DNA of 64,000 nucleotides. Source: Saprospiraceae bacterium (GTDB lineage Bacteria > Bacteroidota > Bacteroidia > Chitinophagales > Saprospiraceae). The position numbers and the translations under genes are program-made. Below are positions 12,199-55,163 of this stretch, piece by piece; the stretch's first letter is position 1; the number at the start of each line of letters is the position of its first letter. The DNA lies in contig JAIYAV010000126.1 in assembly GCA_027488855.1 (NCBI GenBank), positions 1-64,000 of the forward strand, given 5' to 3'. Below the pieces are notes generated by a model. That model had not been told where the DNA came from. It made no database searches and saw only the letters and a list, made by a program, of their open reading frames with translations.

Positions 12199-12263
12199 GT
12201 GATTGAGGTATGAACATCTAATTTGATGCCCATCAGTTGGGCCATTCATACTGGCAATTTCTC

Positions 12264-12294
12264 TTGCTTTTGACCAAAGATTGTGGTAATTTCG
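12264..12294 (+). promoter_or_regulatory. Putative promoter of the toxin-antitoxin pair
   Basis: TTG at 12264-12266 and TAATTTCG at 12287-12294 are separated by 20 bases. This is one mismatch from the Bacteroidota consensus TTG-N19-21-TAnnTTTG, and it lies 18 bases before the antitoxin ATG. Confidence 0.45.
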
Positions 12295-12311
12295 TACTTC
12301 AAATTATCGCT

Positions 12312-12542
12312 ATGGTAGATTCATTGCTTTCAATTGATGCCCTTGAGGTGAATTATCTTACAGATGGACAAGGTAAAACAACGGATGTGGTCATCCCCAT
12401 TAATGTCTGGCTGGAAATAAAAAAATTAATTGAACGTAGTACTTTAAAGGAAGAACTAATTCAGGCATTTCAAGAAATGCAAGATATGCGGAATGGTGTA
12501 AGCCCTAGATTAAGCTTAACCGATGTAATCAATGAGCTATAA
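12312..12542 (+). CDS. Antitoxin-like protein of a RelE-type pair
   Basis: 76 residues starting MVDSLLSIDALEVNYLTDGQ. It has a short beta-strand-like N-terminus (TTDVVIPINVWLEIKKLI) and a charged helical C-terminus (KEELIQAFQEMQD, SLTDVINEL). The gene is small, sits directly before a RelE-like toxin and overlaps it by 11 bases, so it is inferred to be the cognate antitoxin that binds and neutralises the toxin and represses the operon. No specific antitoxin family is recognised with certainty. ATG at 12312 is chosen over 12237 because the upstream codons translate the promoter region. Confidence 0.7.
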   Translation: MVDSLLSIDALEVNYLTDGQGKTTDVVIPINVWLEIKKLIERSTLKEELIQAFQEMQDMRNGVSPRLSLTDVINEL

Positions 12543-12915
12543 AGTTAATATCTCTGCTACCCATCGATTTCTTTCCAGTGCGAAAAGGCTAGCAAAAAAA
12601 TACGCATCTTTAAAAACGGACCTCCTTCGCTTACAATCCGAGCTGCTACTCAATCCTAAGTTGGGAATTTTAATCCAAGCTAACACCTACAAAATCAGGT
12701 TGGCGATTAAAAGTAAAAACAAAGGCAAAAGTGGTGGTGCAAGAGTAATTACTTATTATTTTGAAGAAACTGAAGGGCAACTGGATGCCGAGCTTTTTTT
12801 ACTGACAATTTATGACAAATCTGAAAGCGATACTATTGGTGACGCTGAGCTTATGGAATTGATTGGTGAAGCACAAAAAATCGTGGAAGAGCGAAATACA
12901 ACCGAGGAGGAGTAA
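12532..12915 (+). CDS. RelE/ParE-superfamily toxin
   Basis: 127 residues. Signatures of the RelE-like group common in Bacteroidota are visible: an N-terminal helical region (RFLSSAKRLAKKYASLKTDL), then ANTYKIRLAIKSKNKGKSGG, ARVITYYFEE and the strand LFLLTIYDKSE. RelE-type toxins cleave mRNA on the ribosome. The long basic KSKNKGKSGGARVITY segment supplies candidate nucleic-acid contacts. The start overlaps the antitoxin by 11 bases, indicating translational coupling. It could instead act on gyrase as ParE-like relatives do; sequence reading cannot separate these. Confidence 0.78.
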   Translation: MSYKVNISATHRFLSSAKRLAKKYASLKTDLLRLQSELLLNPKLGILIQANTYKIRLAIKSKNKGKSGGARVITYYFEETEGQLDAELFLLTIYDKSESDTIGDAELMELIGEAQKIVEERNTTEEE

Positions 12916-12950: not shown

Positions 12951-14381
12951 TTACTTAAACAACCGCTCCAAGCTCACCTCCGAATGAACCTCCTCCCGAT
13001 AATAAGCATTTTGCAAAGCCGGATAACTCGTCAACAGCGTTGTCACCACTGATTTTTTAGTACGTGTGAGGTGTTGAAAAACGGTACGCCTTCTTCTCAA
13101 AACAGCAGTATATTCCTTGGTCAATACAAATTCATCGTTGGTGTATTTGGCTTCGCAAAGATTGATGATGCCATCGTTCCGGTCTATGATCAAGTCGATC
13201 TGTACTCCAGGAAGTTCCTCATTTCCTTTAAAATAAAAAGAAGAAGCTTGGGTGTAAATGCCACCAATGCCTAATGCTTCGTGGATTGGTTTGAGGTGGG
13301 TTAAGCAAATATTCTCGAAAGCATATCCCATCCACGATTGGTAGACTGCACCATTGGAAAGACTTTGCCAGACATTGGTACGGTCGCTGGTATTTCCATT
13401 GATGAATTTTAAGTAAAAAATGCTGTAAAAATCAATGACTCGAAATACCGTTTCTTTGGTTTTTTTGCCAAAAGGCCGCAGCGCTTTAACAAAACCACAA
13501 TCGATTAATTGATCCAATATGCGGGCGAAAGAGCCACCATTGTTTACCTTGCTCTGCTCCAGCAATTGATTGCGGGTCATTCCATAAGGATGTTTGGCCA
13601 GGGTCTCGACGATTTGAATGTGGTTTTCAGCATGTTTAAAAAGCGATTGAAAAAGGGGTCTGAATTCGGTAGCCAAGAGTCCATTCTGTTCAAAACAGAG
13701 CTGATCAATCACCTGAGGCACACTTTTACCTAGTTCAACTGCCTGCCAATAATAAGGCACTCCGCCCATCACCATGTACAATTGGGCAATTTGGTATTGG
13801 GTGAATTTCAGGTTTTTGAATTGACAAAAAGCTTTGGTTTCATTCAGGGTAAAAGGTTTTAATTCAATACGTTTGGTGATGCGATTGTGCAAGCCACCTT
13901 TGTCATTGAGCAATTTCCGCAATATCCACGATGCCGCTGAACCACAAGTCATCAAAATCAAATTGTTCATACGCGACCCATGCTGATTCCAAAAATAGGC
14001 CAAGGCCGAAACAAAGCCTGCTCCGGTTCGATCGAGCCAAGGGAGTTCATCAATAAAAACAACTATTTTTTCGGAGCTTGCTGGCATAGCCAGAAGGAAG
14101 TCAGTAAGCAAATGGAAGGCCTCGGACCAGTTTTTAGGCTTTTTTCGATTTTCTGCTAAAGCCCAAACCCGTATTAATTCTTCATAAAAATTATTGAGTT
14201 GAGTAGCTGTTTCCGTTTCATAGGAGCCTGTAAAGCTGAAAACGATACGATTTTTAAAAAACTCTCGTACCAAATAGGTCTTTCCAACCCGTCTGCGTCC
14301 ATAAATCACCACAAATTCTGCTTGTGTGGATTGCAGCAACTTGTTGAAACTAGCCTGCTCTTGTGCTCTACCGATGACCAT
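12951..14381 (-). CDS. STAND-type ATPase with C-terminal DUF234 nuclease-like domain (copy A)
   Basis: 476 residues of the archaeal-ATPase/DUF234 family. Walker A is GRRRVGKTY (Lys34), Walker B is KIVVFIDELPWL (~105-115), and a sensor-like stretch ILMTCGSAASWI follows. A winged-helix region (MTRNQLLEQSKVNNGGSFAR) precedes the DUF234 domain. There the pattern QIDLIIDR...NLCEAKY gives the D-(I/V)...ExK arrangement of PD-(D/E)xK nucleases. The cellular role of the family is unknown. It is a clear paralogue of the gene at 23457-24893 (shared GSAASWI, LLNDKGGLHNRITK, PFTLNET, YAFENICL). The start region abuts 51-bp tandem repeats. The gene lies convergent to the toxin-antitoxin pair. Confidence 0.88.
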   Translation of the reverse strand: MVIGRAQEQASFNKLLQSTQAEFVVIYGRRRVGKTYLVREFFKNRIVFSFTGSYETETATQLNNFYEELIRVWALAENRKKPKNWSEAFHLLTDFLLAMPASSEKIVVFIDELPWLDRTGAGFVSALAYFWNQHGSRMNNLILMTCGSAASWILRKLLNDKGGLHNRITKRIELKPFTLNETKAFCQFKNLKFTQYQIAQLYMVMGGVPYYWQAVELGKSVPQVIDQLCFEQNGLLATEFRPLFQSLFKHAENHIQIVETLAKHPYGMTRNQLLEQSKVNNGGSFARILDQLIDCGFVKALRPFGKKTKETVFRVIDFYSIFYLKFINGNTSDRTNVWQSLSNGAVYQSWMGYAFENICLTHLKPIHEALGIGGIYTQASSFYFKGNEELPGVQIDLIIDRNDGIINLCEAKYTNDEFVLTKEYTAVLRRRRTVFQHLTRTKKSVVTTLLTSYPALQNAYYREEVHSEVSLERLFK

Positions 14382-14390
14382 ATTGGGTTG

Positions 14391-14543
14391 ATTTTGGAAA
14401 AATCTAGCTTTTTAAGGGACTTATTTCCAAAATTAAGGCCAATTTTGGAGAAATCTATAATTTTGAGGCACTTATTTCCAAAATTAAGGTCAATTTTGGA
14501 AAAATCTCTCCTTTTGAAGGACTTATTTCCAAAATTAAGCCCC
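14391..14543. repeat. Three 51-bp tandem repeats upstream of ATPase copy A
   Basis: Exactly contiguous units at 14391-14441, 14442-14492 and 14493-14543. Each begins ATTTTGGA(A/G)AAATCT and ends CTTATTTCCAAAATTAAG. The junctions between units form the palindrome CCAAAATT-N6-AATTTTGG. The unit length is a multiple of three, so the minus strand reads as a 17-residue peptide repeat (LNFGNKSLKKLDFSKI-like) across all three. The repeats begin 10 bases upstream of the ATPase start codon. The middle unit core resembles that of the repeats before ATPase copy B. The remaining bases up to 14679 show nothing further apart from a TATTTTTG box at 14637-14644. Confidence 0.92.
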
Positions 14544-14679
14544 ATCACACCAAAAACCCGCGCCAATTCCTCATACATCCTCCTGACGTTTTCTCCAACA
14601 AAACCCCTTTTCAAGAAAAAATGTAAGATTAACTTTTATTTTTGTTCCCAGCTTTTTTCCCAACAATAAAACCGGAAGT

Positions 14680-17055
14680 ATGAAAAACCACATATCTTTT
14701 TTCACGCTGTTGCTCTGCCTTTTGGGCCAAATTGTTACCCTTTCTGCCCAATCCTACGTGCCCCTTGCCCAAGAATCCAAAATAAAAGTCAAACCGGCCA
14801 TTGCCCTGCAAGCCTATGGCTTCCCGCTGGAAGATGTACGGCTACTACCCGGTAGCCCATTTTATACCGCGATGGAGAAAGACGCGGCCTATTTGCTGAA
14901 AATAGAGCCCGATCGCCTTTTGCACCGCTTTTACGCCAATGCCGGTTTGCCCACCAAAGCTCCCGTGTACGGCGGTTGGGAAAGTGAAGGCCTGTCGGGG
15001 CATACCCTCGGGCATTACCTGTCCGCCTGCGCCTTGATGTATGCGGGCAGCAAGGATGAAAAATACAAGGAGCGAGTGACTTATCTGGTGCAGGAACTGG
15101 CGCGTTGTCAGGAAGCCCGCAAAACGGGGTATGTGGGTGCCATTCCCAAGGAAGACAGCATTTTTGCCCAGGTTGCGCGGGGCGACATCCGCTCCTCTGG
15201 CTTCGACCTCAATGGAGGCTGGTCGCCCTGGTACACCATCCACAAGGTGATGGCGGGCCTGGCCGATGCCTACCTGTATACCAACAGTGACCAGGCGCTG
15301 AAGGTGCTCAAAGGTATGTCCGACTGGACCGGAGCGGTGGTAAACAAACTCAACGACGCCCAGCGCCAAAAAATGCTTAAGTGTGAATACGGGGGTATGA
15401 ACGAAATCCTCGCCAACGTATACGCCTTCACAGGTGAAAAAAAATACCTCGACCTCTCTTACAAGTTCTTCGACGACTTTGTAATGGAGCCTCTTTCCAA
15501 AAAAATCGACCCGCTGCCCGGCAAACATTCCAATACCAACGTACCCAAAGCCATCGGCAGCGCCCGCCAATACCAGCTGACTGGCAATACCCGCGACCAA
15601 ACCATCGCCTCCTTTTTTTGGGAGACCATGGTGCACCAGCACAGCTACGTCATCGGTGGCAACAGCAACTATGAATACTGTGGCGAAGCTGGCAAACTCA
15701 GCGACCGCCTCAGCGACAACACCTGCGAAACCTGCAATACCTACAACATGCTCAAGCTAACCCGACACCTCTTTTGTCAGGAGCCCACAGCCGAGTTGGC
15801 CAATTATTACGAGCGGGCTTTGTACAACCATATTTTGGCTTCGCAAAACCCGGAAACGGGCATGATGACCTACTTTGTCCCACTGCGAATGGGGAGTAAA
15901 AAAGAGTTTAGCGACGAATTCCGCACCTTCACCTGCTGTGTAGGCAGTGGCATGGAAAACCATGTCAAATACAACGAAAGCATCTATTACCACAGCGCGG
16001 ACGGCCAAGGGCTTTACCTCAACTTGTTCATTCCATCCGAATTAAATTGGCAGGCCAAAGGGATGACCGTTCGCCAGGAAACCAACTACCCACAAAGCGG
16101 AAAAGTAAGCGTCAAATTTAGTGGTAAAAAAGCCCAGAAATTCAGTCTGCACCTGCGCCGCCCCTGGTGGATGAACACCAATTGGCAGTTAAAAATCAAT
16201 GGTAAACCCGTCGAAGCCATCGCCCAAGCCAATGGTTATTACAGCATCAATCGGCGTTGGAAAAATGGAGATGTGCTCGAACTGGACATGCCCATGCAGC
16301 TCTACACGGAAAGTATGCCCGATAATCCCAACCGGATTGCTTTCCTCTACGGGCCAATCGTTTTGGCTGGCCAATTGGGCAACAAAATGCCTGATCCCCT
16401 GTACGGCACCCCCGTCATTTTGAGCGCCGAGCGCAAAGCGGATCAATTGGTACAGCCAAAAGACCTTGCTACTTTGAAGTTTCAATTGAGTTCGGCGGTG
16501 GCGAAACCTCTGGCACCTGTATTGATTCCTTTTTTCCAAAGCAACAAAGAATATTACAGCGTGTACTGGGATTATTTCACGCCCGAACAATGGACGGCTC
16601 GCCAGGCTGAATACGAAGCGGAGAAACAACGCCAACAAAAAATCGAGGCCCAAACCCTCGATAATTTCCGCATCGGCGAAATGCAACCCGAACGCGACCA
16701 CAAGTTGGAAGCCAGTGAACGCTCTTACGTGAGTGATGCACTTGGTGTAAATGGCCGGGAAGCACGCACTGGGCACTATTTTGCTTTTGAAATGAAAGTA
16801 CAACCTGGGGGCAAAAACCGCCTGCTGTTCACCTACATCGGCGACGACAAAGACCGCAAATTCGACATCAAAGTAAACGGCCAATTGTTGCTCACCGAAA
16901 CCTTGACGGGGGGACAAACGGGCCGCTTTTACGATCGGGAGTACGCTATTCCAGCCGAATTGTTGACTGCCGGGGATAAAATCGTGGTGCGAGTAGAGGC
17001 AAATTATGGGAAAACGGCGGGCAGGGTCTTTGGTGCCAGGATATTGCGGGACTGA
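14680..17055 (+). CDS. Glycoside hydrolase family 127 (beta-L-arabinofuranosidase-like, DUF1680)
   Basis: 791 residues with a signal peptide (KNHISFFTLLLCLLGQIVTL then SAQS). The GH127 fold is shown by VYGGWESEGLSGHTLGHYLS, FDLNGGWSPWYTIHKVMAGL, CEYGGMNEILANVYAFTG and the zinc/cysteine site. ETCNTYN supplies Glu and Cys, and FTCCVGSGMENH supplies the adjacent Cys-Cys pair, one of which is the nucleophile in the characterised Bifidobacterium enzyme. The family releases terminal beta-L-arabinofuranose from plant glycans and glycoproteins. Residues beyond ~640 form an extra beta-rich accessory domain. Location is periplasmic or extracellular. A TATTTTTG box at 14637-14644 may be its -7 element. 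No other polysaccharide-utilisation genes flank it. Confidence 0.88.
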   Translation: MKNHISFFTLLLCLLGQIVTLSAQSYVPLAQESKIKVKPAIALQAYGFPLEDVRLLPGSPFYTAMEKDAAYLLKIEPDRLLHRFYANAGLPTKAPVYGGWESEGLSGHTLGHYLSACALMYAGSKDEKYKERVTYLVQELARCQEARKTGYVGAIPKEDSIFAQVARGDIRSSGFDLNGGWSPWYTIHKVMAGLADAYLYTNSDQALKVLKGMSDWTGAVVNKLNDAQRQKMLKCEYGGMNEILANVYAFTGEKKYLDLSYKFFDDFVMEPLSKKIDPLPGKHSNTNVPKAIGSARQYQLTGNTRDQTIASFFWETMVHQHSYVIGGNSNYEYCGEAGKLSDRLSDNTCETCNTYNMLKLTRHLFCQEPTAELANYYERALYNHILASQNPETGMMTYFVPLRMGSKKEFSDEFRTFTCCVGSGMENHVKYNESIYYHSADGQGLYLNLFIPSELNWQAKGMTVRQETNYPQSGKVSVKFSGKKAQKFSLHLRRPWWMNTNWQLKINGKPVEAIAQANGYYSINRRWKNGDVLELDMPMQLYTESMPDNPNRIAFLYGPIVLAGQLGNKMPDPLYGTPVILSAERKADQLVQPKDLATLKFQLSSAVAKPLAPVLIPFFQSNKEYYSVYWDYFTPEQWTARQAEYEAEKQRQQKIEAQTLDNFRIGEMQPERDHKLEASERSYVSDALGVNGREARTGHYFAFEMKVQPGGKNRLLFTYIGDDKDRKFDIKVNGQLLLTETLTGGQTGRFYDREYAIPAELLTAGDKIVVRVEANYGKTAGRVFGARILRD

Positions 17056-17125
17056 TTTTTTAAAAATGCTTTTAGGTGGTGTTCCAGAGATTTTGTACTC
17101 TTGCCTTTCCAAACTCAAAACAGCC

Positions 17126-18061
17126 ATGCGCAATACCATCTATTTTTCCCTGTTCTTAGCCTATGCTCTTTTTTCTTGTACAAGTGACCAAAGCAGTTCG
17201 GAAGTACAAGATGCTCTGGATGAATGGTTTCCCAAGCAATACAAAATTGTTGAAGGTAGTCCGATTAACGAAACCGATTCGATAGTGTTGGTACCTGTTC
17301 AGTCTGTGGCAGACCCAAAGATTCAATTTACCATCGATTACCAACCCAAAAAAGAAAAAGGGGGCCTGGTCAAAGACTCGATCCAAAGCGCATTTGCAGC
17401 CGCTAAAGTGAATGCCCAGCCAGCCCGTGATTTATTGGAAGCATTGCAAAAAAATGGCTTCAAAAATGTGGTAGTGGGCACCAATTTGGCTCAAAATGCA
17501 GTCCAGATCCAATTTTACGAGGAGCCCTTCAATTCGATCTTTAGCTCTCGTATGAAGCACATCCAAAAAATCAGCGCAGCATGGGCCGCCCAGCGCAATA
17601 TGGTGCCTTGCCAGTTGACATTTTTGGTGATGGATCCCAAAGCCTGGGGAAAAAGATTCCAGGAAGTACTCGATGCGCGCTTCATCAACCGGGCGAATGA
17701 CTGGGTTTATCAAAATACCATTGCCAGCGCCAATGCTGATTTGGCTGATCCAGGCTCTTCGGAGTTTCTACCGGGTAGTTTAAACTTGAGTGGCGGGCGG
17801 GAAATGGAAATCCGCAAAAAGGTACACGCCGAAGTGGTGGACTTTTTACGAACTTCCAAAAAACTGGATTTCCACGTTGAACTAATCGCCATGGTCAACA
17901 CTGAGTGGGATTTGCGCAACATGGAAACAATCCGTTACTACTTTCCTTATTGCCAACAGAGCGAAAGCACCAAAGTCAACGGGAGTTGTATGGGCAACTT
18001 TGATGGTCGCATTTCTTGTGTCTATAAATTTAAGACTGGGGAAACGCAGGTGGATTTTTAA
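17126..18061 (+). CDS. Putative lipoprotein of unknown function
   Basis: 311 residues. The N-terminus MRNTIYFSLFLAYALFSCTS ends in a lipobox-like LFSC, so it is probably a lipoprotein. ATG at 17126 is chosen over 17006 because the latter would overlap the GH127 gene and hide the signal sequence. The body has no recognised domain; it is charged, with segments such as AAWAAQRNMVPCQLTFLVMD and REMEIRKKVHAEVVDFLRTS. Four cysteines near the C-terminus (YCQQSESTKVNGSC, ISCVYKF) could form disulfides. It starts 70 bases after GH127 on the same strand, but a functional link is not evident. Confidence 0.65.
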   Translation: MRNTIYFSLFLAYALFSCTSDQSSSEVQDALDEWFPKQYKIVEGSPINETDSIVLVPVQSVADPKIQFTIDYQPKKEKGGLVKDSIQSAFAAAKVNAQPARDLLEALQKNGFKNVVVGTNLAQNAVQIQFYEEPFNSIFSSRMKHIQKISAAWAAQRNMVPCQLTFLVMDPKAWGKRFQEVLDARFINRANDWVYQNTIASANADLADPGSSEFLPGSLNLSGGREMEIRKKVHAEVVDFLRTSKKLDFHVELIAMVNTEWDLRNMETIRYYFPYCQQSESTKVNGSCMGNFDGRISCVYKFKTGETQVDF

Positions 18062-18141
18062 TTCAATACAACCTCCCCGCAAAGTTTTTTCTCTGTAAAG
18101 GGTCTACTTGATCTCCTAACTACAGAGAAATCCATTCGCAC

Positions 18142-19578
18142 ATGAAATCAATATTTTTGGGGCTCTGCCTCCTCCTGTTCACAAACCTATCTGCTCAAGA
18201 TAGCTCAAATTACGACCCCGATAAAAAGTATCACCCCGACAGTTTGCGTCGCTGGACGACCAGTATCATGACTGAATTGGGAAAAAAGCACCCCGGATTT
18301 TACCGCTACACCCCCAAAGCGCGTTTTGACTTTTTGATTGATTCCACTACGCAAACCATCAAAGACTCTTTGAATGAATTGAGTTTTTACCGAAAAATAA
18401 AACCTTTGTTTGCCCAAATTGGCTGTTTGCACACCGGAATCAGCCTTTCAGAAGCCTGCAACAATTACCTCGACAACACCTCAACTTTGCTCCCATTTGA
18501 AGTATTTATTGACGAGGATAAAAAAGTTTATGTGGTAAAAAATTACGACAACAACCCTTCCATTCCCTTAACAGCGGAAATCCTCTCCATCAATGAACAC
18601 CCCATTGGCGAAATTCTCCACACCTTGATCAAAGCCATACCAGCGGATGGGTACAATGAAACTGAAAAAATCCTGCTCCTGAACCACCGCTTCGCCTTTT
18701 GGTACCAAACCATAATTGAGCTAAGTGAAAATTTTACCATCCACACCAAGTTTCAGGAAAAGCTAGAAACATATGTGGTCAAAGGAGTAAACAAAGCACT
18801 GTTTCCCACCCTGGCCTCACTGGAATCGGTAGACGTCAAGCAATTGAATCTCGACATTGTAGACAAAACGGGCATTCTCACCATTCATTCCTTCGCCAAA
18901 TCGGTGATCAAAAAAAATGGCCAGCGCTTCAAAAAATTCATCAGCACCACCTTTAAAACTTTAAAACAACAAGGGATTGAAAATTTGGTAATCGACCTGC
19001 GCTACAACATTGGCGGAACCGATGGGAATGCAGCTTTGCTGGCCTCCTATTTTTTTGATAAACGATTCAGGTATTGGGAAAAAATTGAAGTCACCGAGGC
19101 GGTGGCCCGGGAGATAAAGGGAGTGTATCGACTTTTTTTTATTATTTTTGAGCGAAAAGATTCGACTTATTTGTGGAAAAAAACCTGGGTGACGAGCGAG
19201 TTCGATTATTACCAGGTACAAAAACCAGCCAGGCACAACTTCAAGGGGCAAACCTATCTCTTGACCAATGGGCTGTGCATGTCTTCTTGCAGTGACTTTA
19301 CTGCCATCCTTGCACACAATAAAAAGGCTGTGGTGATTGGTCAGGAAAGTGGCGGTGGATACCAGGGCAACACCAGTGGCATGATGCCCACAACCAGCAT
19401 TCCTACTGGACTAAGCATATCGGTTCCCCTGCAAAAATACACCAATGCAGTCGATCCAAACGTCAACTTCGGACGGGGCACCATCCCCAATTACATCCTG
19501 AATCCAAGTGTAGAAGATTGGATGAATAAAAAAGATGTGGAAATGGAATTTGTACTGAAATTGATTGCTAATCAGTAG
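18142..19578 (+). CDS. S41 family (C-terminal processing protease-like) peptidase
   Basis: 478 residues with a signal peptide (MKSIFLGLCLLLFTNLSAQ). The N-terminal half has a helical cap plus a degenerate PDZ-like region. The catalytic S41 core is visible as ENLVIDLRYNIGGTDGNAAL (oxyanion region), LLTNGLCMSSCSDFTAIL with the nucleophile serine, and AVVIGQESGGGYQGNTSG. Family members act as serine proteases with a Ser-Lys dyad; the lysine cannot be assigned with certainty here. It is probably periplasmic or lipid-proximal. It lies 80 bases after the lipoprotein and convergent with sucA, with an inverted repeat between the two genes. Confidence 0.85.
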   Translation: MKSIFLGLCLLLFTNLSAQDSSNYDPDKKYHPDSLRRWTTSIMTELGKKHPGFYRYTPKARFDFLIDSTTQTIKDSLNELSFYRKIKPLFAQIGCLHTGISLSEACNNYLDNTSTLLPFEVFIDEDKKVYVVKNYDNNPSIPLTAEILSINEHPIGEILHTLIKAIPADGYNETEKILLLNHRFAFWYQTIIELSENFTIHTKFQEKLETYVVKGVNKALFPTLASLESVDVKQLNLDIVDKTGILTIHSFAKSVIKKNGQRFKKFISTTFKTLKQQGIENLVIDLRYNIGGTDGNAALLASYFFDKRFRYWEKIEVTEAVAREIKGVYRLFFIIFERKDSTYLWKKTWVTSEFDYYQVQKPARHNFKGQTYLLTNGLCMSSCSDFTAILAHNKKAVVIGQESGGGYQGNTSGMMPTTSIPTGLSISVPLQKYTNAVDPNVNFGRGTIPNYILNPSVEDWMNKKDVEMEFVLKLIANQ

Positions 19579-19599
19579 CCCTGTCAAGTGAAGAATATC

Positions 19600-19662
19600 C
19601 CAAATGAAGAATGACGAATTCGAGGGCAACGCCCCAAATTCATCATTCATCACTCATCATTT
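19600..19662. repeat. Low-complexity inverted repeat between convergent genes
   Basis: AATGAAGAATGACGAATT on the left and AATTCATCATTCATCACTCA on the right pair imperfectly around a GC-rich loop (GAGGGCAACGCCCC). It lies between the stops of the S41 peptidase and sucA and may end both transcripts. Confidence 0.55.
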
Positions 19663-19666
19663 ATCA

Positions 19667-22414
19667 CTAACCAAACGCTTTCTGCAAAATCTCCTCCTGC
19701 TGCTGGTCATGCACCTTCTTAAAGCCCACCGCAGGCGAAGCACTCGCCCGGCGCGAGATGCGCTGCAAATTGCGATCGGTTTCCCAATTCAGTTTCATGT
19801 ATTGCCATGCGCCCATATTGGCCGATTCCTCCTGCACCCAGAAGATTTCTGCTTTGGCGTAGCGCTTGAGCACTTCGGCGAGTTGAGTCTCGGGCATGGG
19901 GTGTAATTGCTCTACCCGCACGATGGCCACGTCGTCACGCTTGAGTTCACGCTTGCGTTGCGCCAGGTCGTAGTAGATTTTGCCCGTGCAAAACAGTACG
20001 CGCTTCACACCCTTCGCTTCTTTGCTGCTTACCGTAAGATCGTCGATGACTTCCTGGAAACCTTTACCCGTCTCAAAATCAGCCATCGGAGACACACATT
20101 CCGGGTGGCGCAGCATTGATTTGGGCGACATCACCACCAGTGGTTTGCGGAATTCCCAGGCCAATTGGCGGCGCAGGAGGTGGAAGAAGTTGGCGGGTGA
20201 ACTGATGTTGGTGACAATCATGTTCAGATCAGCGCAAGCTTGCAGGAAGCGCTCCAAACGGGCACTGGAGTGCTCGGGTCCCTGGCCTTCGTAGCCGTGG
20301 GGAAGAAGCAATGTCAAACCTGACATGCGGTTCCACTTACTTTCCGCAGCAGAGATAAACTGGTCAACGATGGTTTGAGCACCGTTAAAGAAGTCGCCAA
20401 ACTGGGCCTCCCAAATCACCAGGGTGTTTGGATCAGCCAAGGAATAGCCGTATTCAAAACCCATTACCGCAAATTCCGATAGCAGGGAGTTGTAAATGTA
20501 GAATGGAGCCTGGTTCTCCTGGATGTTGTCCAGGCGATTGAGCACCTCGTTGGTTTTTGCATCGTGCAGCACCGCGTGGCGATGGGAGAAAGTACCCCGC
20601 TGCACGTCCTGGCCACTCATGCGCACGGTTTTGCCATCCATCAGGATCGAGCCATAAGCCATCAATTCGGCAGTTGCCCAATCCACTTGCCCTTTCGCCA
20701 ACAGTTTTTTGTTGTTTTCCAACAAGCGACTAACCTTGGGAATGGGGCGGAAATGGCCTGGAATGGTACTGAGGTGATTGAGGATTTTTTCAACCTGGGC
20801 TTTTTCAAGGCCCGTCGCTGGCGATCCTTTGAAATCTTGAACAGTGGCGTGGCGCAATTTTTCCCACTCTTCCTCGGGTTCTTGCAACTTATAGGGCAGA
20901 GGGTGCTGTTTTACTTCTTCCAAACGTTCTTGTAGGTCGCCCCAGTAGGTTTTTTCCAGGTCATCGGCCAACTGTTTGGGCAGTTCTCCCATTTCAATCA
21001 ACTCCTTCTGGTAAATCTCCCGTGGGTTGGGGTGTACACTGATGGCTTGGTATAGGTCCGGTTGGGTAAACATGGGGTCGTCGCCCTCGTTGTGTCCATG
21101 TCGGCGGTAGCACACCATGTCGATGAAAACGTCGGTGTTGAATTCCTGACGGTATTCCATGGCCATTTCGACGGCATAGAGCAGGGCTTCAGGATCATCA
21201 CCATTGACGTGGAAAACGGGTGCAGAAACCACACTGGCTACCCCGGTACAATAAGTGGAAGAACGAGCGTCCTCAAAATCGGTGGTAAAACCAATCTGGT
21301 TGTTGATCACAAAATGGAACGTCCCCCCGGTATTGTAGCCCTTGAGTTTACTCATCTGAATGACCTCAAACACGATGCCCTGACCCGCTACTGCGGCATC
21401 ACCGTGGATGAGGATCGGCAAAATCCGGTCGTACTCACCTTTATATAAGCGATCCGCTTTGGCGCGGGCGTAACCTTCTACCACGGGGTTGACTGCTTCC
21501 AAGTGGGAAGGGTTGGGGGTGAGTTCCAATTGAACTTCTTTACCTCCTGGCGTAACGACCTGTGAGGAATAACCCAGGTGGTACTTCACATCGCCGTCGC
21601 CAAAACTCTGGTCAGGAATGGCGGTACCTTCAAACTCGGTGAAAATTTGCTCGTAGGTTTTTTTCATAATGTTGGCCAACACGTTCAAACGACCGCGGTG
21701 TGCCATGCCAATGATCACCTCTTCGACACCCATTTCTGCACCTTTATTAATGGCGGCATCCAGGGCGACGATGGTGCTTTCCCCTCCTTCGAGTGAGAAG
21801 CGTTTTTGACCAATGTATTTGGTGTGCAAAAACTTCTCAAAACCTACTGCCTCATTCAATTTTTCCAGAATGCGGCGTTTTTTATCAAGGGGAATGTTGT
21901 AATGTTTCTCCGGGCGGCTTTGCTCCACACGGGTACGTAACCAACGGCGCTTTTCACGCTGCTGGATGTGCTGGAACTCAAAGCCGATGTTGCCACAATA
22001 AATGCGCTTGAGGTGCGCCAGGATGTCGCGTAGGGTGGAGGGTTTTTCCAAACCACACTCCATGGCCGCGTAGAAGACCGTATCCAGGTCTTTTTCACTC
22101 AGTTTAAAATCCTCCAGATCCAATTTAGGATTGCGGTTGCGGCGTGGCCGCACTGGGTTGGTCGTAGACAGGAGGTGACCCCGGCCCCGAAAGGCATTGA
22201 CCATGGCCAAAACCTGGAATTCCTGTGGGTTAAATACCGAGGATGGCGTCGTGCCATTGCTTTTTTCATGCCCATTGGTGCTGTGGGCGTAATCAAAGCC
22301 TTTGAAAAAAGAGGCCCAGGAGCCTTCAATTTGCTCGGGATTGTTTTGATATTGCTCGTACAGCGAATCAATGTAAGCTGGGTGAGCATTGGCAATGAAG
22401 GAGAAATCGCTCAT
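19667..22414 (-). CDS. sucA: 2-oxoglutarate dehydrogenase E1 component
   Basis: 915 residues, close to the usual ~930. It is the thiamine-diphosphate-dependent E1o of the TCA-cycle complex that decarboxylates 2-oxoglutarate and transfers succinyl to E2. The N-terminal segment FIANAHPAYIDSLYEQYQNN and the E1o motifs AHRGRLNVLANI, HGDAAVAGQG, GTFHFVINNQIGFTT, RRHGHNEGDDPMFTQP, LPHGYEGQGPEHSSARLERF and SPKSMLRHP are all present. The start at 22414 (MSDFSFIANAHPAYID) is preferred to an upstream ATG at 22519, because the extra 35 residues cover the promoter and have no family resemblance. sucB is not adjacent. It is divergent from rpsT. Confidence 0.96.
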   Translation of the reverse strand: MSDFSFIANAHPAYIDSLYEQYQNNPEQIEGSWASFFKGFDYAHSTNGHEKSNGTTPSSVFNPQEFQVLAMVNAFRGRGHLLSTTNPVRPRRNRNPKLDLEDFKLSEKDLDTVFYAAMECGLEKPSTLRDILAHLKRIYCGNIGFEFQHIQQREKRRWLRTRVEQSRPEKHYNIPLDKKRRILEKLNEAVGFEKFLHTKYIGQKRFSLEGGESTIVALDAAINKGAEMGVEEVIIGMAHRGRLNVLANIMKKTYEQIFTEFEGTAIPDQSFGDGDVKYHLGYSSQVVTPGGKEVQLELTPNPSHLEAVNPVVEGYARAKADRLYKGEYDRILPILIHGDAAVAGQGIVFEVIQMSKLKGYNTGGTFHFVINNQIGFTTDFEDARSSTYCTGVASVVSAPVFHVNGDDPEALLYAVEMAMEYRQEFNTDVFIDMVCYRRHGHNEGDDPMFTQPDLYQAISVHPNPREIYQKELIEMGELPKQLADDLEKTYWGDLQERLEEVKQHPLPYKLQEPEEEWEKLRHATVQDFKGSPATGLEKAQVEKILNHLSTIPGHFRPIPKVSRLLENNKKLLAKGQVDWATAELMAYGSILMDGKTVRMSGQDVQRGTFSHRHAVLHDAKTNEVLNRLDNIQENQAPFYIYNSLLSEFAVMGFEYGYSLADPNTLVIWEAQFGDFFNGAQTIVDQFISAAESKWNRMSGLTLLLPHGYEGQGPEHSSARLERFLQACADLNMIVTNISSPANFFHLLRRQLAWEFRKPLVVMSPKSMLRHPECVSPMADFETGKGFQEVIDDLTVSSKEAKGVKRVLFCTGKIYYDLAQRKRELKRDDVAIVRVEQLHPMPETQLAEVLKRYAKAEIFWVQEESANMGAWQYMKLNWETDRNLQRISRRASASPAVGFKKVHDQQQEEILQKAFG

Positions 22415-22442
22415 TGTGGTGATCTGGTTTTGAAATATGGCA

Positions 22443-22450
22443 CAAAAGTA
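22443..22450 (-). promoter_or_regulatory. Putative -7 element for sucA
   Basis: On the minus strand TACTTTTG matches TAnnTTTG about 29 bases before the sucA ATG. No convincing -33 TTG at the right spacing is seen. Confidence 0.45.
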
Positions 22451-22506
22451 CAACCTATTTAGGTCTTTGGATAATCTTAAACGAAAAGGTTTTTTTAAAA
22501 TTACCT

Positions 22507-22537
22507 TTGGACTTTCCAAATGAATAATTATCTTTGC
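22507..22537 (+). promoter_or_regulatory. Promoter of rpsT, Bacteroidota type
   Basis: TTTG at 22507-22510 and TATCTTTG at 22530-22537, with 19 bases between. This is an exact match to the TTTG/TAnnTTTG consensus and lies about 45 bases before the rpsT start codon. Confidence 0.8.
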
Positions 22538-22582
22538 GCTCCAATTGTTCAGTAGTATTATTAATTGTGAAAAGTTTTAGTA

Positions 22583-22837
22583 ATGGCAAACCATAAATCG
22601 TCTGAGAAGCGTATCCGTCAAGAGGCAAAGCGTCGTTTGTTGAACCGCTACTACAAGAAGACTACTCGTACGTCTATCAAGAAGTTGCGCAGCATGAAGG
22701 ACAAGACGGAGGCGGTAGGTTTCTTGCCAAAAGTGATCCAAATGATCGACAAACTGGCAAAGAAAAACACTTGGCATAAGAACAAGGCAGCCAACCTGAA
22801 GAGCAGCTTGATGAAGCACGTTGCTCACTTGGGTTAA
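22583..22837 (+). CDS. rpsT: 30S ribosomal protein S20
   Basis: 84 residues: [20 protein letters not shown] and the helical, lysine/arginine-rich remainder ([35 protein letters not shown]) match S20, which binds 16S rRNA early in 30S assembly. It has its own promoter at 22507-22537 and a hairpin terminator immediately downstream. It lies between divergent sucA and a TetR gene. Confidence 0.97.
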
Positions 22838-22849
22838 GCTTATGACATA

Positions 22850-22874
22850 CCCCCGGTCTCTAATGATCGGGGGG
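22850..22874 (+). terminator. Hairpin after rpsT
   Basis: CCCCCGGTC pairs with GATCGGGGG (one wobble) across a short loop, 12 bases after the rpsT stop. It is followed by a modestly T-rich stretch (CTTCTCGTTT). It overlaps the leader of the next gene. Confidence 0.65.
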
Positions 22875-22884
22875 CTTCTCGTTT

Positions 22885-23454
22885 GTGGAAAAGTCAAAGA
22901 AAGAACAAATCTACGAAGCCGCCGCGCGCCTGTTCCGGGACAAAGGATACCAGGCCACCTCTATGCGCGATCTGGCCAAGGAAGTAGGCTTACGCGCTTC
23001 CAGTTTATACAATCATTTTCCATCCAAGTCTGATGTGCTCCGCGAAATTTGTACCAACAATGCTCAGCGTTTTCTATCTGGCATGTTGGAAGTGGAGTCC
23101 CTGCAAGTGAATGCTACCGAAAAACTCACCCGCCTGATCCGTTTGCACATCCAATTGTCGCTCGAAGACGTCACCTCTGTCACGGCCTTCAACGACGAAT
23201 GGCGACACCTCGAAGAACCACACCTGAGTGAATTCCTGCAATTGCGCAAAGATTACGAAAGCCGTTTTCAGGCGATCATTAACGCTGGCGTGGCGAGTGG
23301 GGAATTCAAACCCGTTAATCCCTTGATTTTGTCGTATACCTTGTTCTCGGCTCTGCGTTGGTTGTACGATTGGTACAAGCCGGGGAAGAAGATTACGGCG
23401 GAGATGCTGGAGGAGGAGTTGTTGGTGATTTTGCTGGAGGGGGTGCGGGTGTGA
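22885..23454 (+). CDS. TetR/AcrR family transcriptional regulator
   Basis: 189 residues. The N-terminal DNA-binding domain is clear: QIYEAAARLFRDKGYQATSM, RDLAKEVGLRASSLYNHFPS, KSDVLREI. The ligand-binding part (TRLIRLHIQLSLEDVTSVTA, LRWLYDWYKPGKKI) resembles TetR proteins that control fatty-acid degradation. The start is a GTG at 22885; no ATG fits the helix-turn-helix. It ends two bases from the stop of the convergent ATPase gene. The beta-oxidation genes fadJ/fadA beyond that ATPase are plausible targets, an inference from position only. Confidence 0.88.
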   Translation: MEKSKKEQIYEAAARLFRDKGYQATSMRDLAKEVGLRASSLYNHFPSKSDVLREICTNNAQRFLSGMLEVESLQVNATEKLTRLIRLHIQLSLEDVTSVTAFNDEWRHLEEPHLSEFLQLRKDYESRFQAIINAGVASGEFKPVNPLILSYTLFSALRWLYDWYKPGKKITAEMLEEELLVILLEGVRV

Positions 23455-23456
23455 GG

Positions 23457-24893
23457 CTAAGCTTCTTCAAATAAACTGTCCAAGGTCAAAACGTTGTCCA
23501 CCAAACCCAGGCTATATTGGTTTTGCTTCAAACCAAAGGTGCTCAGCATTACCCAAGATAACTGCTTGCGCGTACCCGTTGACGCTTTGAATACTGCACG
23601 TTTCTCCCGAAGGCCATTGCTGAACTCGAGATCAGGAACAAAAGGTTCTTCGTAAAATTTAATTTCAAAAAGATTGATTACGTGGTCTTTGCGGTCTAGT
23701 ACCAAATCAATTTGTGCCCCACCAAGTTCAGGGCTACTCTTTTTGTAAAAACTAGAGACTGAAGAAAAAATACCAGAGATACCCAATGCTTTTTTAATTT
23801 GAGAAACGTGACGTAGACAAATATTTTCAAAGGCATAACCTGCCCAGGATTTGTATTGCTGAGATTGGCTGAGTTGAAACCAAATGCCTTCTTCGGAGGT
23901 GTTGGATTCAATGAATTGTAAATAAAAAAGCGAATAAGGATCGCTGAGTCGATAAGTTTTTTCTCGTTGCTTTCCTTTAAACGCATAATATGAATGGATG
24001 AACCCGGATTGTTCCAGTTCTGTCAACAAAGTGGTGATGCTGCCGCCAGACTTAAATTTTAATTGTTCGATTAATTCCATACGGTGCATGCCTTTCCATT
24101 TACTGGCCAACGCCCGGATGATGGCAACGTACCGTTCAGCGTGTTTGAACAAGGCAGGGTAAAGTTTTGAAAACTCATTTTTGAGCAAGCCATTTTCGGA
24201 GAAACAAATCCGATCAATATTTTGCACTACACTTTGTCCAGCTTTTACTGCTTTGAGATAGTGGGGTATTCCTCCCAGAGCCATGTATAAATGCAGCATT
24301 TGAAACCGATCAAAGTAAATATTTCTAGAGTGCAGATAAACCTCTGTTTCATTTAAGGTGAAAGGATGTAAATGAATGTATTTGGTAATGCGATTGTGCA
24401 ATCCACCTTTGTCGTTTACAACGCGCCGAATCATCCAAGAAGCCGCAGAACCACAAATGACAACAACTAGATTTTGCCGGGAAGCCCAACTGTTCCAAAA
24501 ATAGCCCAAGGCTTCTAAAAAACCTGATTTGTGTCGAGATAACCAAGGGACTTCATCAAAAAAAAGTACGTGTTTTTTTTTAGGGTCCAGTTCCTTCAAG
24601 TACTGCTTCAACAATTGAAAGGCTGCTAGCCAATCCATAGGAACCTCAAGTGGCAATTTGTTTACATAAAAAGCACTTAATTCATCTCGAAAATTGCGCA
24701 GTTGTAATTGTGTTGAGGCGCTTTGGGTTCCTGATATTTCAAAAACGATATTGTCCTTGTAAACACTGGAAACCAGGAAGGTTTTGCCAATGCGTCGACG
24801 CCCCAACACAGCTACCATTTCTGCTTCATTTGACTCCAATGCTTCTTGTAAAATGAGCACCTCTTTTTTCCGCCCGATCACTTGTGCGTCCAT
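23457..24893 (-). CDS. STAND-type ATPase with C-terminal DUF234 nuclease-like domain (copy B)
   Basis: About 478 residues from ATG 24893 (MDAQVIGRKKEVLILQEALE); an ATG at 24917 lies inside the upstream repeat and would add eight residues. Walker A is GRRRIGKTF, Walker B is HVLFFDEVPWL, followed by VVICGSAASWMIRR, DKGGLHNRITKYIHLHPFTL and a winged-helix segment. The C-terminal PD-(D/E)xK-like pattern is QIDLVLDR...NLFEIKFY. It is a paralogue of the 12951-14381 gene. It sits between a TetR regulator and fadJ as a probable later insertion, and is preceded by its own tandem palindromes at 24912-24999. The biological role of the family is not established. Confidence 0.88.
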   Translation of the reverse strand: MDAQVIGRKKEVLILQEALESNEAEMVAVLGRRRIGKTFLVSSVYKDNIVFEISGTQSASTQLQLRNFRDELSAFYVNKLPLEVPMDWLAAFQLLKQYLKELDPKKKHVLFFDEVPWLSRHKSGFLEALGYFWNSWASRQNLVVVICGSAASWMIRRVVNDKGGLHNRITKYIHLHPFTLNETEVYLHSRNIYFDRFQMLHLYMALGGIPHYLKAVKAGQSVVQNIDRICFSENGLLKNEFSKLYPALFKHAERYVAIIRALASKWKGMHRMELIEQLKFKSGGSITTLLTELEQSGFIHSYYAFKGKQREKTYRLSDPYSLFYLQFIESNTSEEGIWFQLSQSQQYKSWAGYAFENICLRHVSQIKKALGISGIFSSVSSFYKKSSPELGGAQIDLVLDRKDHVINLFEIKFYEEPFVPDLEFSNGLREKRAVFKASTGTRKQLSWVMLSTFGLKQNQYSLGLVDNVLTLDSLFEEA

Positions 24894-24911
24894 ACCGTTT
24901 GCTTTATTATT

Positions 24912-24999
24912 CGCCATAAGTGCCTACAAATATAGACTTATGGCGAGTAATAAGCAATTATTTTTCGCCATAAGTACCCTAAAGTATATAGTTATGGCG
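24912..24999. repeat. Two tandem palindromic units upstream of ATPase copy B
   Basis: Two 34-bp units, 24912-24945 and 24966-24999, lie 54 bases apart. Each has the arms CGCCATAA and TTATGGCG; the arms extend to 10 perfect bases in the first unit. Read on the minus strand, the unit at 24912-24945 carries the core CTATATTTGTAGGCACTTAT. This closely resembles CTATAATTTTGAGGCACTTA in the middle repeat before ATPase copy A. The 54-base period is also a multiple of three. Confidence 0.9.
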
Positions 25000-25006
25000 A
25001 AAAACC

Positions 25007-28496: not shown

Positions 28497-28628
28497 CATC
28501 CTTTCTAAGGTGTCCTAAGGTGTCCTAAGGTGTCTAAGGTGGTTCAAATAAACTATGTTTTAATTGAAGAACCATATTAGATTCATTTTGAACCACCTTA
28601 GACACCTTAGGACACCTTAGAAAGGATG
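28497..28628. repeat. Long inverted repeat of CTAAGG words
   Basis: The left arm 28497-28548 (CATCCTTTCTAAGGTGTCCT onward, with TGTCCTAAGG tandemly repeated) pairs with 28587-28628 (TTTGAACCACCTTAGACACC onward, ending AAAGGATG). The left arm carries one extra 10-base unit. The GAACCA(C/T)CTTAGA motif links it to the repeats at 5511 and 33865. Confidence 0.85.
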
Positions 28629-44173: not shown

Positions 44174-44285
44174 GAGAGATGAAAGATGAAAGATGAGAGA
44201 TGAAAGATGCTACCGCAGAGGCTTAGACAAGGCCATCATCAAAAACGCTGCGGTAGCATCTCTCATCTTTCATCTCTCATCTTTA
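44174..44285. repeat. Inverted repeat of AGATGAAAG/AGATGAGAG words with CTACCGCAG arms
   Basis: GATGCTACCGCAG on the left pairs with CTGCGGTAGCATC on the right. The outer parts are runs of GATGAAA/GATGAGA words that also pair. It separates the 1336-residue gene from the PorV-like gene on the minus strand and could attenuate transcription between them. Confidence 0.75.
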
Positions 44286-54912: not shown

Positions 54913-54916
54913 GAGA

Positions 54917-55005
54917 GATGAAAGAGGAGAGATGAAAGATGAAAGAGAATAGTTGAAAGAAGATCACGTGTTTACGCTTTCATCTTTCATCTCTCCTCTT
55001 TCATC
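54917..55005. repeat. 29-bp perfect inverted repeat between convergent genes
   Basis: The arms 54917-54945 and 54977-55005 are exact reverse complements over 29 bases and are built from GATGAAAGA/GAGAGATG words. They lie between the stops of the TPR gene and rpmH, where they could terminate both transcripts. The word use resembles the repeat at 44174-44285. Confidence 0.9.
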
Positions 55006-55007
55006 TT

Positions 55008-55163
55008 TTACTTCAGACGCTTTTCGTCAGAAACCGTCAGCTTGTGACGACCCTTGGCACGGCGTGCAGCCAATACTCTACGGCCGTTCTTCGAGCTCAT
55101 ACGAGTCCGGAAGCCGTGCTTGTTGGCACGTTTGCGACGGGATGGTTGATAAGTCCTTTTCAT
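55008..55163 (-). CDS. rpmH: 50S ribosomal protein L34
   Basis: 51 residues: [20 protein letters not shown] then [20 protein letters not shown] and a short tail, the full L34 sequence. It lies in the 23S rRNA core of the large subunit. The short basic gene follows frr by 134 bases on the same strand. In many bacteria rpmH lies next to rnpA and dnaA; neither is here, so the usual origin linkage is broken. Confidence 0.96.

Follow-up and report, generated by a model that had tools for sequence, protein, structure and literature searches.

Two paralogous genes, A and B, lie on the reverse strand of the 64,000-nucleotide window, which is the whole stretch of Saprospiraceae DNA analysed here, and an array of inverted repeats is found directly upstream of each (Table 1). 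Both proteins match the PADLOC model PDC-S27 (PDLC04984) over nearly their whole length (A: 1.1e-186, 619.3 bits, span 2-475; B: 2.2e-191, 634.8 bits, span 10-483) as well as Pfam ATPase_2 (PF01637), with 71.8 bits for A and 58.0 bits for B against a gathering score of 33.2. The original prediction had labelled them DUF234 proteins, a name that we replace by PDC-S27, as the Pfam cut-off for DUF234 (PF03008, gathering score 22.5) was missed by B, at 20.2 bits, and by A, which was unmatched at E ≤ 0.001. The AF2 model of B has a mean pLDDT of 92.2. In the PD-(D/E)XK signature, E418 and K420 of B are invariant and D404 is nearly so (90% or more) among 54 sequences. A fold search matched the ATPase and winged helix, mostly over residues 6-357, to the archaeal ATPases PAB2304 (2qen, Z 20.4) and SSO1545 (2fna, Z 20.2), to CED-4 (4m9s, 16.6) and to archaeal Orc1/Cdc6 (2qby, with DNA, Z 14.0; 2v1u, Z 13.3); a sequence profile reached only 2fna, 2qen and, weakly, TnsC. 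PAB2304, SSO1545 and Orc1/Cdc6 have the ATPase and winged-helix arrangement in common with the A/B family. Orc1/Cdc6 proteins bind inverted origin boxes; they are not known to carry a nuclease domain or to have sites private to their own promoters.

The genome encodes about 20 long PDC-S27 copies including A and B (25 matches, of which 19 were counted, 16 of these with a convergent pair in the array-ranking test described below). For B, the start codon at 24893, chosen in the original prediction, was kept in preference to the longer-ORF start at 24917, because the latter would fall inside the array of the gene. PADLOC lists PDC-S27 as a defence candidate. The available sections of a defence survey describe it as an ATPase with PD-(D/E)XK, count 4,562 cases in bacteria and 3,503 in archaea, and likewise treat its antiphage role as a candidate one (PMC12988326). 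Carriers in culture include Emticicia oligotrophica.

Table 1 Features of genes A and B and their upstream arrays (window positions; B residues in 486-aa numbering)
Feature	Positions	Strand	Remarks
Gene A	12951..14381	-	476-aa member of the PDC-S27 family with ATPase (PF01637), winged helix and PD-(D/E)XK motif
Predicted winged helix of A, residues 251-315	13437..13631	-	gap-free alignment onto the model of B
Recognition helix region of A, residues 281-294	13500..13541	-	covariation with half-site positions: 281 with 11/12, 284 with 8/7, 287 with 8
PD-(D/E)XK signature of A, D396 ... E410-x-K412	13146..13196	-	conserved motif
Putative operator array of A	14389..14537	-	six 17-bp half-sites
Half-sites of A, gene strand	14521-14537, 14470-14486, 14419-14435	-
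Half-sites of A, opposite strand	14491-14507, 14440-14456, 14389-14405	+
Gene B	23457..24893	-	paralogue of A, 45% identity, 478 aa
Predicted winged helix of B, residues 260-324	23946..24140	-	AF2 model
Winged-helix parts of B: helices 260-272, 279-286, 292-303; wing strands 307-312/320-324		-	AF2 model
Recognition helix region of B	24009..24050	-	290 (=A281) two residues ahead of helix 292-303; 293 (=A284) and 296 (=A287) inside the helix
Residue 318 of B (=A309), between wing strands	23964-23966	-	alignment and model
PD-(D/E)XK signature of B, D404 ... E418-x-K420	23658..23708	-	conserved motif
Putative operator array of B	24905..25006	-	four half-sites
Half-sites of B, gene strand	24990-25006, 24936-24952	-
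Half-sites of B, opposite strand	24959-24975, 24905-24921	+

The repeats that the original prediction had described, with a 51-bp unit at A and as palindromes 54 bp apart at B, each close to the start codon, are real and reach much wider than first noted. At A, Tandem Repeats Finder (TRF) reported 2.9 copies of the unit at 14391-14539 with 86% matches, which resolve into half-sites of alternating orientation ending 7 bases from the start codon. The convergent-pair score of the 260 bp upstream was equalled in 0 of 500 dinucleotide shuffles, and the plain inverted-repeat score of 11 in 6 of 200. At B, two imperfect palindromes with a period of 54 bp end 11 bases from the start codon; over the 260 bp upward from 24918, a region lacking the gene-proximal half-site, 0/500 shuffles equalled the pair score and 0/200 the inverted-repeat score. 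Two other elements of the first description were not borne out. The 20-bp core shared by A and B, which had been taken as the key conserved element, consists of the spacer between two half-sites plus the half-site ends; it does not tell the paralogues apart, and the arms are the specific part. The multiple-of-three periods look incidental given the half-site distances across the family, and on these distances a coding explanation for them was rejected.

Enrichment upstream of other family members, on whose absence the original prediction was to fall, was borne out. It was scored in 307 of 324 genes found, those with a matched span exceeding 1,200 bp, over 150 bp of upstream sequence and more than 400 aa; 11 of the 307 were the same gene fetched twice, leaving 296 distinct genes. 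A convergent pair of 17-bp half-sites with centres 30/31 bp apart was present within 260 bp upstream of 205/296 genes at a score of at least 13, compared to 5/592 shuffles and 13/280 downstream regions of distinct family genes; the score thresholds and the model of the half-site had been set with these data in view, and the same ones were applied to the shuffles. Before duplicates were dropped, the counts were 216/307, 5/614 and 14/291, respectively. Among other ORFs of the genome that carries A and B, called mechanically, such pairs were found upstream of only 2 of 275, one of them the array of A viewed from its neighbour. The remaining 91 of the 296 genes had no pair at this score.

The half-sites, extracted by geometry from the DNA alone, share the architecture TATW-N8-AAWST, with arms that vary between paralogues. 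Arrays contain two to nine half-sites in alternating orientation, with centre-to-centre spacings of 30-31 and 21-23 bp favoured. Counting distances that occur more than once, convergent neighbours lie 30-31 bp apart in 202/239 cases, divergent neighbours 21-23 bp apart in 109/166 and same-strand neighbours 52-54 bp apart in 38/42. The spacer is T-rich, gene-directed and, judged by motif only, promoter-like, with a TAnnTTTG-like element in part of the family (exact matches in the spacer: 27/170 forward, 0/170 reverse); in the middle repeat of A, this element is directed away from the gene. Weighing against the operator reading given below, members from outside Bacteroidota (by title) showed the pair geometry in 16/41 and the site-11 rule described below in 7/12. 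In a separate count, inverted-repeat scores of at least 10 were obtained for 7/11 plasmid or phage members and 2/4 archaeal members. Upstream regions of the sister family PDC-S01 also reach inverted-repeat scores of at least 10 (15/30, compared to 6/150 shuffles and 5/29 downstream regions), with a different geometry.

Across the family, the inverted repeats found upstream of its genes covary with the predicted DNA-binding domain of the encoded protein, as measured by family-wide sequence statistics. Half-site bases covary with four predicted winged-helix residues, 281, 284, 287 and 309 (A numbering). Removal of genes at least 80% identical reduced the 216 genes with a pair to 176, in which residue 281 and site 11 gave z = 21.1 (maximum of 100 permutations, 8.6), followed by 284-8 (13.5), 281-12 (13.1), 309-13 (9.5) and 287-8 (8.7). 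Since this run pools discovery and test genes, 49 new genes served as the independent test. There, 281-site 11 again came first (z = 12.1, next pair 5.2) and alone stood out, with 281-12, 284 and 309 outside the top 15 pairs; in the tables of these genes the lesser pairs, though unranked, agree in direction (284 T with A at site 8, 8/11; 287 R with G at site 8, 11/15; 309 K with A at site 13, 28/29; 309 R with T, 7/14; 281 D with G at site 12, 6/10). An identity-stratified test over all gene pairs also placed 281-site 11 first, and because the pairs in that test are not independent, 93 disjoint sister pairs were used. Where 281 was the same, site 11 was the same in 62 of 62 pairs, and where 281 had changed, site 11 had changed in 17 of 31; with p = 1.5e-10, this pair ranked first among 4,248 tests. 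Taken alone, 287-site 8 did not reach significance (p = 0.1), and from third place downward the list included columns lying outside the winged helix. These relations suggest a code in which S or T at 281 would specify C at site 11, N would specify T and E would specify G, with D at 281 specifying G at site 12, R at 287 specifying G at site 8, and K or R at 309 specifying A or T, respectively, at site 13. With base preferences learnt in other genomes (<60% identity), the true array of a gene ranked near the top among those of its paralogues in each of five genomes (mean normalised rank, 0.02-0.10). Over three of these, the mean was 0.072, against 0.466 for randomly drawn columns, the lowest of 25 such sets reaching 0.370. 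The columns themselves had been chosen on pooled data that included the tested genomes, so that the base preferences alone were held out. Gene A misfits the code, as its N281 predicts T at site 11, where its half-sites have A, and its array ranked 7 of 16.

Since the half-site letters vary in step with the predicted DNA-reading domain, the gene that a family protein recognises and controls is most likely its own, and we consider the arrays to be paralogue-private operators, probably autorepressive, with a probability of roughly 76%. A family member, with its STAND/Orc-like ATPase, winged helix and PD-(D/E)XK motif, would read a private 17-bp half-site through its own winged helix, and this half-site would recur in alternating orientation over the protein's own promoter. 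One subunit per half-site, bound on the same helix face, would then cover the promoter and repress the gene, repression rather than activation being assumed. The ATPase may set affinity or oligomerisation, and the protein may be released or reorganised, freeing the nuclease, by some trigger such as phage or DNA stress. Of the readings offered in the original prediction, namely a cognate DNA target, an integration site or a self-regulatory operator, the cognate self-site is strongly supported by enrichment and residue covariation and the integration site finds little support; its emphasis on the shared core is misplaced.

Activation of the gene by its own product, bound to the same half-sites in a positive feedback, would fit the covariation, sister-pair and array-ranking evidence equally well. 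Some STAND regulators, and some controller proteins of restriction systems, switch on their own genes in this way, and arrays of many half-sites reach far upstream, as is usual for activators. However, 99 of the 170 Bacteroidota-set arrays have their gene-nearest pair, which encloses the promoter-like spacer, ending no more than 15 bp from the start codon, a placement more usual for repression, and we regard an activator site as unlikely.

A site at which the protein cuts or docks in order to spread, home or enforce its retention, with regulation secondary, would agree with the conserved nuclease motif, the roughly 20 copies in the genome, and the absence of B at the same place in 4/4 genus relatives, one of which retains a partial array relic. 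It would also agree with a small downstream excess of own-specificity sites (16 matches in 56.4 kb compared to 3 for control cores); several of the 13 downstream pairs resemble the own sites of the gene (L041, L131, L147, L165, L174), and 2 of 190 genes have two or more own-core matches downstream. Against this, own-core matches number 589 upstream and 16 downstream, and the exact half-sites of A (both forms) and of B (main form) occur only at their own promoters in the 8.37 Mb searched. The second form of A has three exact matches, all at A (control 0). One-mismatch matches are close to the control, in which every match of the reversed pattern was counted (3 vs 2 for B, 2 vs 1 for A), and with exact half-sites found nowhere else a dispersed target was rejected; the fourth, deviating half-site of B (5 matches vs 11 in the control) is too short a pattern to inform. 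The 11-bp own cores, which were derived from the very upstream regions scored, gave 10.0 matches/kb within 300 bp upstream compared to 0.04/kb in the coding region, and another gene's core matched 7 times in the same 58.8 kb of upstream DNA. Apart from simple repeats, no further array was judged real by eye in 458 kb of the genome, the convergent pair of B had 0 matches in phage DNA in IMG/VR, and the empty-site comparison, made for B alone, resolved no unit ends or target duplication. The integration site of the original prediction therefore finds little support, given exact half-sites of A and B confined to their own promoters and the lack of further arrays in 458 kb, with downstream own sites of a few genes and the absence of B and its partial array relic in its favour. 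A primary nuclease or mobility role is very improbable. Leader-RNA hairpins acting as attenuator or stability elements, or chance AT-rich palindromes, are scarcely credible: many arms could pair in RNA and the arrays lie in the 5′ region, but their frequency far exceeds that in shuffles and at other ORFs, the centre spacing of 30/31 bp is preferred, the bases covary with winged-helix residues, and the promoter-like element lies within the palindrome, so that a transcript begun there would miss one arm.

Private self-operators of the kind favoured here resemble known arrangements in part. The antitoxins AbiEi and Rv2827c autoregulate via inverted repeats in their own promoters, with positive cooperativity for AbiEi and negative cooperativity for Rv2827c (PMC7319586, available sections). 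As in PDC-S27, where control is predicted from sequence, a DNA-binding protein is paired with inverted repeats in its own promoter, but the regulator there is a separate antitoxin beside the toxin, whereas PDC-S27 proteins combine winged helix, ATPase and nuclease motif, and the same sections report no recognition code diversified among paralogues such as that of the PDC-S27 arrays. RptR, which represses a restriction-modification/DarTG2 island, is described in the sections available as a small, separate protein that uses a 6-bp palindrome, TAGCTA, in direct repeats (PMC12255303). Promoter repeats of defence genes and a dedicated repressor, in PDC-S27 a candidate one, are common to both; the RptR site is single and conserved, while PDC-S27 sites vary from one paralogue to the next and the effector would itself be the repressor.

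Among the open-access matches listed, we found no report of an operator or autoregulation for the PDC-S27 family and no biochemistry on its proteins, despite the thousands counted in the available sections of the defence survey (PMC12988326). The arrays give PDC-S27 members a candidate DNA partner and a way to locate true starts and promoters, as well as a direct readout, by EMSA or reporter, for the roles of ATPase and nuclease. A more speculative and rather doubtful extension is that the family consists of self-addressed nucleases, whose private address would serve as both operator and assembly platform and would be largely readable through the helix/wing code; holding on the array may silence the nuclease, and displacement by invading DNA or promoter takeover may be the trigger. 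With private specificities, the roughly 20 paralogues of one genome would be spared cross-regulation. The proposed residue-to-base code, derived from sequence alone and replicated for its main pair, would make the family a naturally occurring collection of candidate orthogonal repressor-operator pairs, and it raises the question of why one genome retains about 20 privately addressed proteins that are nucleases by motif.

Genes A and B share 45% identity in a pairwise protein alignment, and the PADLOC PDC-S27 profile covers both almost end to end. Their proposed DUF234 assignment was not upheld, as the Pfam DUF234 score lay under its cut-off. The upstream repeats were found where the original prediction had placed them, and the TAnnTTTG of A's middle repeat is directed away from the gene, in agreement with a core said to run opposite to gene A; the core said to be common to A and B corresponds to the spacer plus half-site ends. 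A total of 25 family-profile matches was obtained in the 8.37-Mb genome, 19 of which, the long ones with enough upstream sequence, were counted; nearly all upstream regions of the 19 same-genome paralogues showed inverted repeats adjoining the start codon, with different arms. The two small ORFs 3′ of gene A resemble by eye an antitoxin/RelE-type toxin pair and gave no Pfam or NCBIfam matches.

Features of the window and of the modelled winged helix of protein B (486-aa numbering)
Feature	Position	Strand	Description
Gene A	12951-14381	minus	Pfam ATPase_2 PF01637 and PADLOC PDC-S27 match
Repeats of gene A	14391-14539		51-bp units
ORF pair 3′ of gene A	12237-12915		Two short ORFs of 101 and 127 aa that overlap, immediately 3′ of the gene
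Gene B	23457-24893	minus	Pfam ATPase_2 PF01637 and PADLOC PDC-S27 match; longer start at 24917 possible
Repeats of gene B	24905-25006		Two palindromes, 54 bp apart
Long inverted repeat	28503-28622		Near-perfect, made up of CTAAGGTGTC decamers, with 3.8 copies in one arm and 2.8 reversed copies in the other; between 28440, where the thiolase ORF begins, and 28676, where the next ORF ends
Heptamer arrays	44175-44284; 54913-55008		AGATGAA-type arrays followed by roughly their reverse complement; hairpins possible
Winged helix of B, helices	residues 260-272, 279-286, 292-303		AlphaFold2 model
Winged helix of B, wing strands	residues 307-312, 320-324		AlphaFold2 model

A strong inverted repeat, defined as a score of at least 10 within 250 bp upstream, was present in 92 of 104 family genes in the first set, 103 of which are distinct, compared to 5/312 dinucleotide shuffles and 13/100 downstream regions. 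Of 100 genes added later, 95 were both distinct and new relative to the first set; this second set gave 92/100 (shuffles 13/300, downstream 20/97), and all 296 distinct family genes together gave 255 (shuffles 17/592). When convergent half-sites with centres 30 or 31 bp apart and a pair score of at least 13 were required, the predicted enrichment upstream of other family members was borne out, with pairs in 205 of the 296 and none reaching this cut-off in the other 91, compared to 5/592 shuffles, 13/280 downstream regions and 2/275 upstream regions of mechanically called ORFs from the genome of the window. Of the two ORF pairs, one is A's own array viewed from the divergent GH127 gene and the other is a simple repeat. 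Organism names were available for 80 loci, and by title 41 of these fall outside Bacteroidota; most of the 41 come from metagenome bins, for which misassignment is possible. An inverted repeat was present in 31/41 and the exact pair geometry in 16/41. Scores of at least 10 were also reached by 7/11 plasmid and phage members and by two of four archaeal members (M. jannaschii and Haloterrigena), with Natronomonas and Haloarcula below 10. The member in Wolbachia phage WO adjoins phage head genes, and its upstream region carries repeated CCGCGG half-sites around TATAATG that reach the start codon; its inverted-repeat score of 7 was matched or exceeded in 13/40 shuffles. Two IMG/VR members carry the same element, and neither scored at least 10. 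The sister candidate PDC-S01 (loci L373-L402) had upstream inverted repeats in 15/30, compared to 6/150 shuffles and 5/29 downstream regions, with a geometry unlike that of PDC-S27 (e.g., L393 and L379).

The arrays are built of 17-bp half-sites, roughly TATW-N8-AAWST, that alternate in orientation and number 2 to 9 per array, most commonly 4 (84/216). Among the distances listed, centres were 30 or 31 bp apart in 202/239 convergent neighbours, 21-23 bp in 109/166 divergent neighbours and 52-54 bp in 38/42 same-strand neighbours. These values approximate 3, 2 and 5 helical turns, which suggests that bound subunits would share one face of the DNA. The 13/14-bp spacer between convergent half-sites is T-rich and directional; in 170 arrays, TAnnTTTG, which corresponds to the Bacteroidota -7 box, had the gene's direction in 27 and the reverse in none, and TATTTTT had the gene's direction in 46 compared to 4 reversed. 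The gene-proximal pair ended within 15 bp of the start codon in 99 of the 170.

Each half-site position was compared with each protein column by background-corrected mutual information, and the signal picked out the predicted winged helix. The strongest pairs among 126 genes (protein A numbering) were residue 281 with site 11 (z 11.2), 281 with site 12 (9.0) and 284 with site 8 (7.7); the maximum over 60 permutations was 8.25, which only the first two exceed. A further 49 genes, each sharing under 75% identity with the first set and with one another, again had 281-site 11 ahead of all pairs (z 12.1, runner-up 5.2), with N paired with T in 15/16, S with C in 13/14, E with G in 4/5 and D mixed; the remaining lead pairs were absent from the top 15. 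Pooling 176 genes with an improved half-site register gave z values of 21.1 (281-11), 13.5 (284-8), 13.1 (281-12), 9.5 (309-13), 8.7 (287-8) and 7.8 (284-7) against a maximum of 8.6 in 100 permutations; the pairs ranking next, site 4-residue 119 (7.7) and site 10-residue 134 (6.4), fall outside the winged helix. In this set, site 11 was C with S (41/46) or T (11/11) at 281, T with N (35/40) and G with E (22/26); site 12 was G with D at 281 (34/38), site 8 was A with T at 284 (37/46) and G with R at 287 (48/54), and site 13 was A with K (103/108) and T with R (28/37) at 309. Of the 176 genes, 161 have S, T, N, E or D as residue 281, and the site-11 rule, allowing either G or T for D, accounts for 146 of them. 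At loci outside Bacteroidota by title it holds in 7/12, two of the seven being near-identical, and three of the five misses (L173, L207, L221) have an alignment insertion beside residue 281.

Kinship was controlled for with 93 disjoint sister pairs, in which site 11 was unchanged in 62/62 with residue 281 unchanged and changed in 17/31 with it changed (p = 1.5e-10, the best of 4,248 column-site tests). The pairs also support 284-site 7 (p = 2.6e-6), 309-site 13 (6.6e-5), 284-site 8 (5e-4) and 281-site 12 (9e-4), and 287-site 8 alone was not supported in them (p = 0.1). Columns were chosen on pooled data, and base preferences were learnt from other genomes, from proteins sharing under 60% identity with the test protein. 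These preferences ranked a gene's own array high against those of its paralogues, with a mean normalised rank of 0.098 for 16 genes of the same genome and of 0.045 (11 genes), 0.071 (8), 0.024 (7) and 0.083 (4) in four other genomes. Taken over the first three genomes the mean was 0.072; with randomly drawn columns it was 0.466, and the lowest value among 25 such sets was 0.370. Gene B's array ranked first of 16 and gene A's seventh. Gene A, one of the two genes in the original finding, is an outlier and counts against the code: its N281 predicts T at site 11, its sites carry A, and its half-sites have two kinds of ending, TAAGT and AAATCT. The reversed TAnnTTTG of its middle repeat is a further misfit.

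The AlphaFold2 model of B (mean pLDDT 92.2, pTM 0.89) comprises an ATPase, a winged helix and a C-terminal alpha/beta domain. In a gap-free alignment, A281, 284, 287 and 309 correspond to B290, 293, 296 and 318, which lie just before the third helix (290), inside it (293 and 296) and between the wing strands (318), so the covarying residues occupy the positions expected for a winged helix that reads DNA. Among solved structures, the archaeal ATPases 2qen and 2fna have the nearest folds, followed by CED-4, plant NLRs and Orc/Cdc6 proteins, some DNA-bound; a sequence-profile search reached only 2fna, 2qen and, weakly, TnsC. In the predicted nuclease motif, E418 and K420 are invariant and D404 nearly so among 54 sequences.

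The sites are largely private to their genes. B's main half-site pattern, with two bases free, occurs exactly 3 times in the genome, all at the B promoter, and the two forms of the A half-site have 3 exact occurrences each, all at the A promoter; one-mismatch matches were close to control genome-wide. Across 458 kb including the window, no array beyond those of A and B scored at least 15, the three further matches at that score being simple repeats by eye. For 197 genes with a pair that were the sole family gene in their locus, the gene's own 11-bp core had 589 matches in the 300 bp upstream; coding regions held 12 (control cores 16) and the 300 bp downstream held 16 (control cores 3), indicating that sites are overwhelmingly upstream with a small downstream excess. 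At least two downstream matches occurred in 2/190 genes (L041 and L165). The pair search adds similar own-specificity downstream sites at L131, L147 and L174, and all five loci carry an own-type half-site pair both before the start and after the stop codon.

From sequence, the best reading is that the private operator would mediate autoregulation of its own gene, probably by repression, which is preferred given the promoter-like element between half-sites and the arrays that end close to the start codon. An array private to its paralogue and lying across that gene's promoter would serve as the operator, the ATPase may act as a switch, and a trigger and a nuclease target are presumed. Gene B is absent from the same place in 4/4 genus relatives, one of which keeps what looks like part of its array, which indicates that the unit is gained and lost. 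In that close relative (L328, FadJ neighbour 98% identical), no gene B follows the FadJ stop and an apparent operator relic, a partial B palindrome with the same spacer start, is visible by eye; another relative, equally close to the genome of the window, has neither gene nor relic.

Autoregulation by repeat-binding proteins is well known, as for AbiEi/Rv2827c (PMC7319586) and RptR (PMC12255303). PDC-S27 has been described as an ATPase plus PD-(D/E)XK candidate with 4,562 bacterial and 3,503 archaeal cases, validation being pending for most PDCs (PMC12988326). Among the open-access full-text matches listed, none was found that describes an operator, a DNA specificity or autoregulation for PDC-S27. 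The features that seem new are the union of effector and inferred regulator in a single protein, an operator private to the paralogue, and a residue-to-base code legible across the family.
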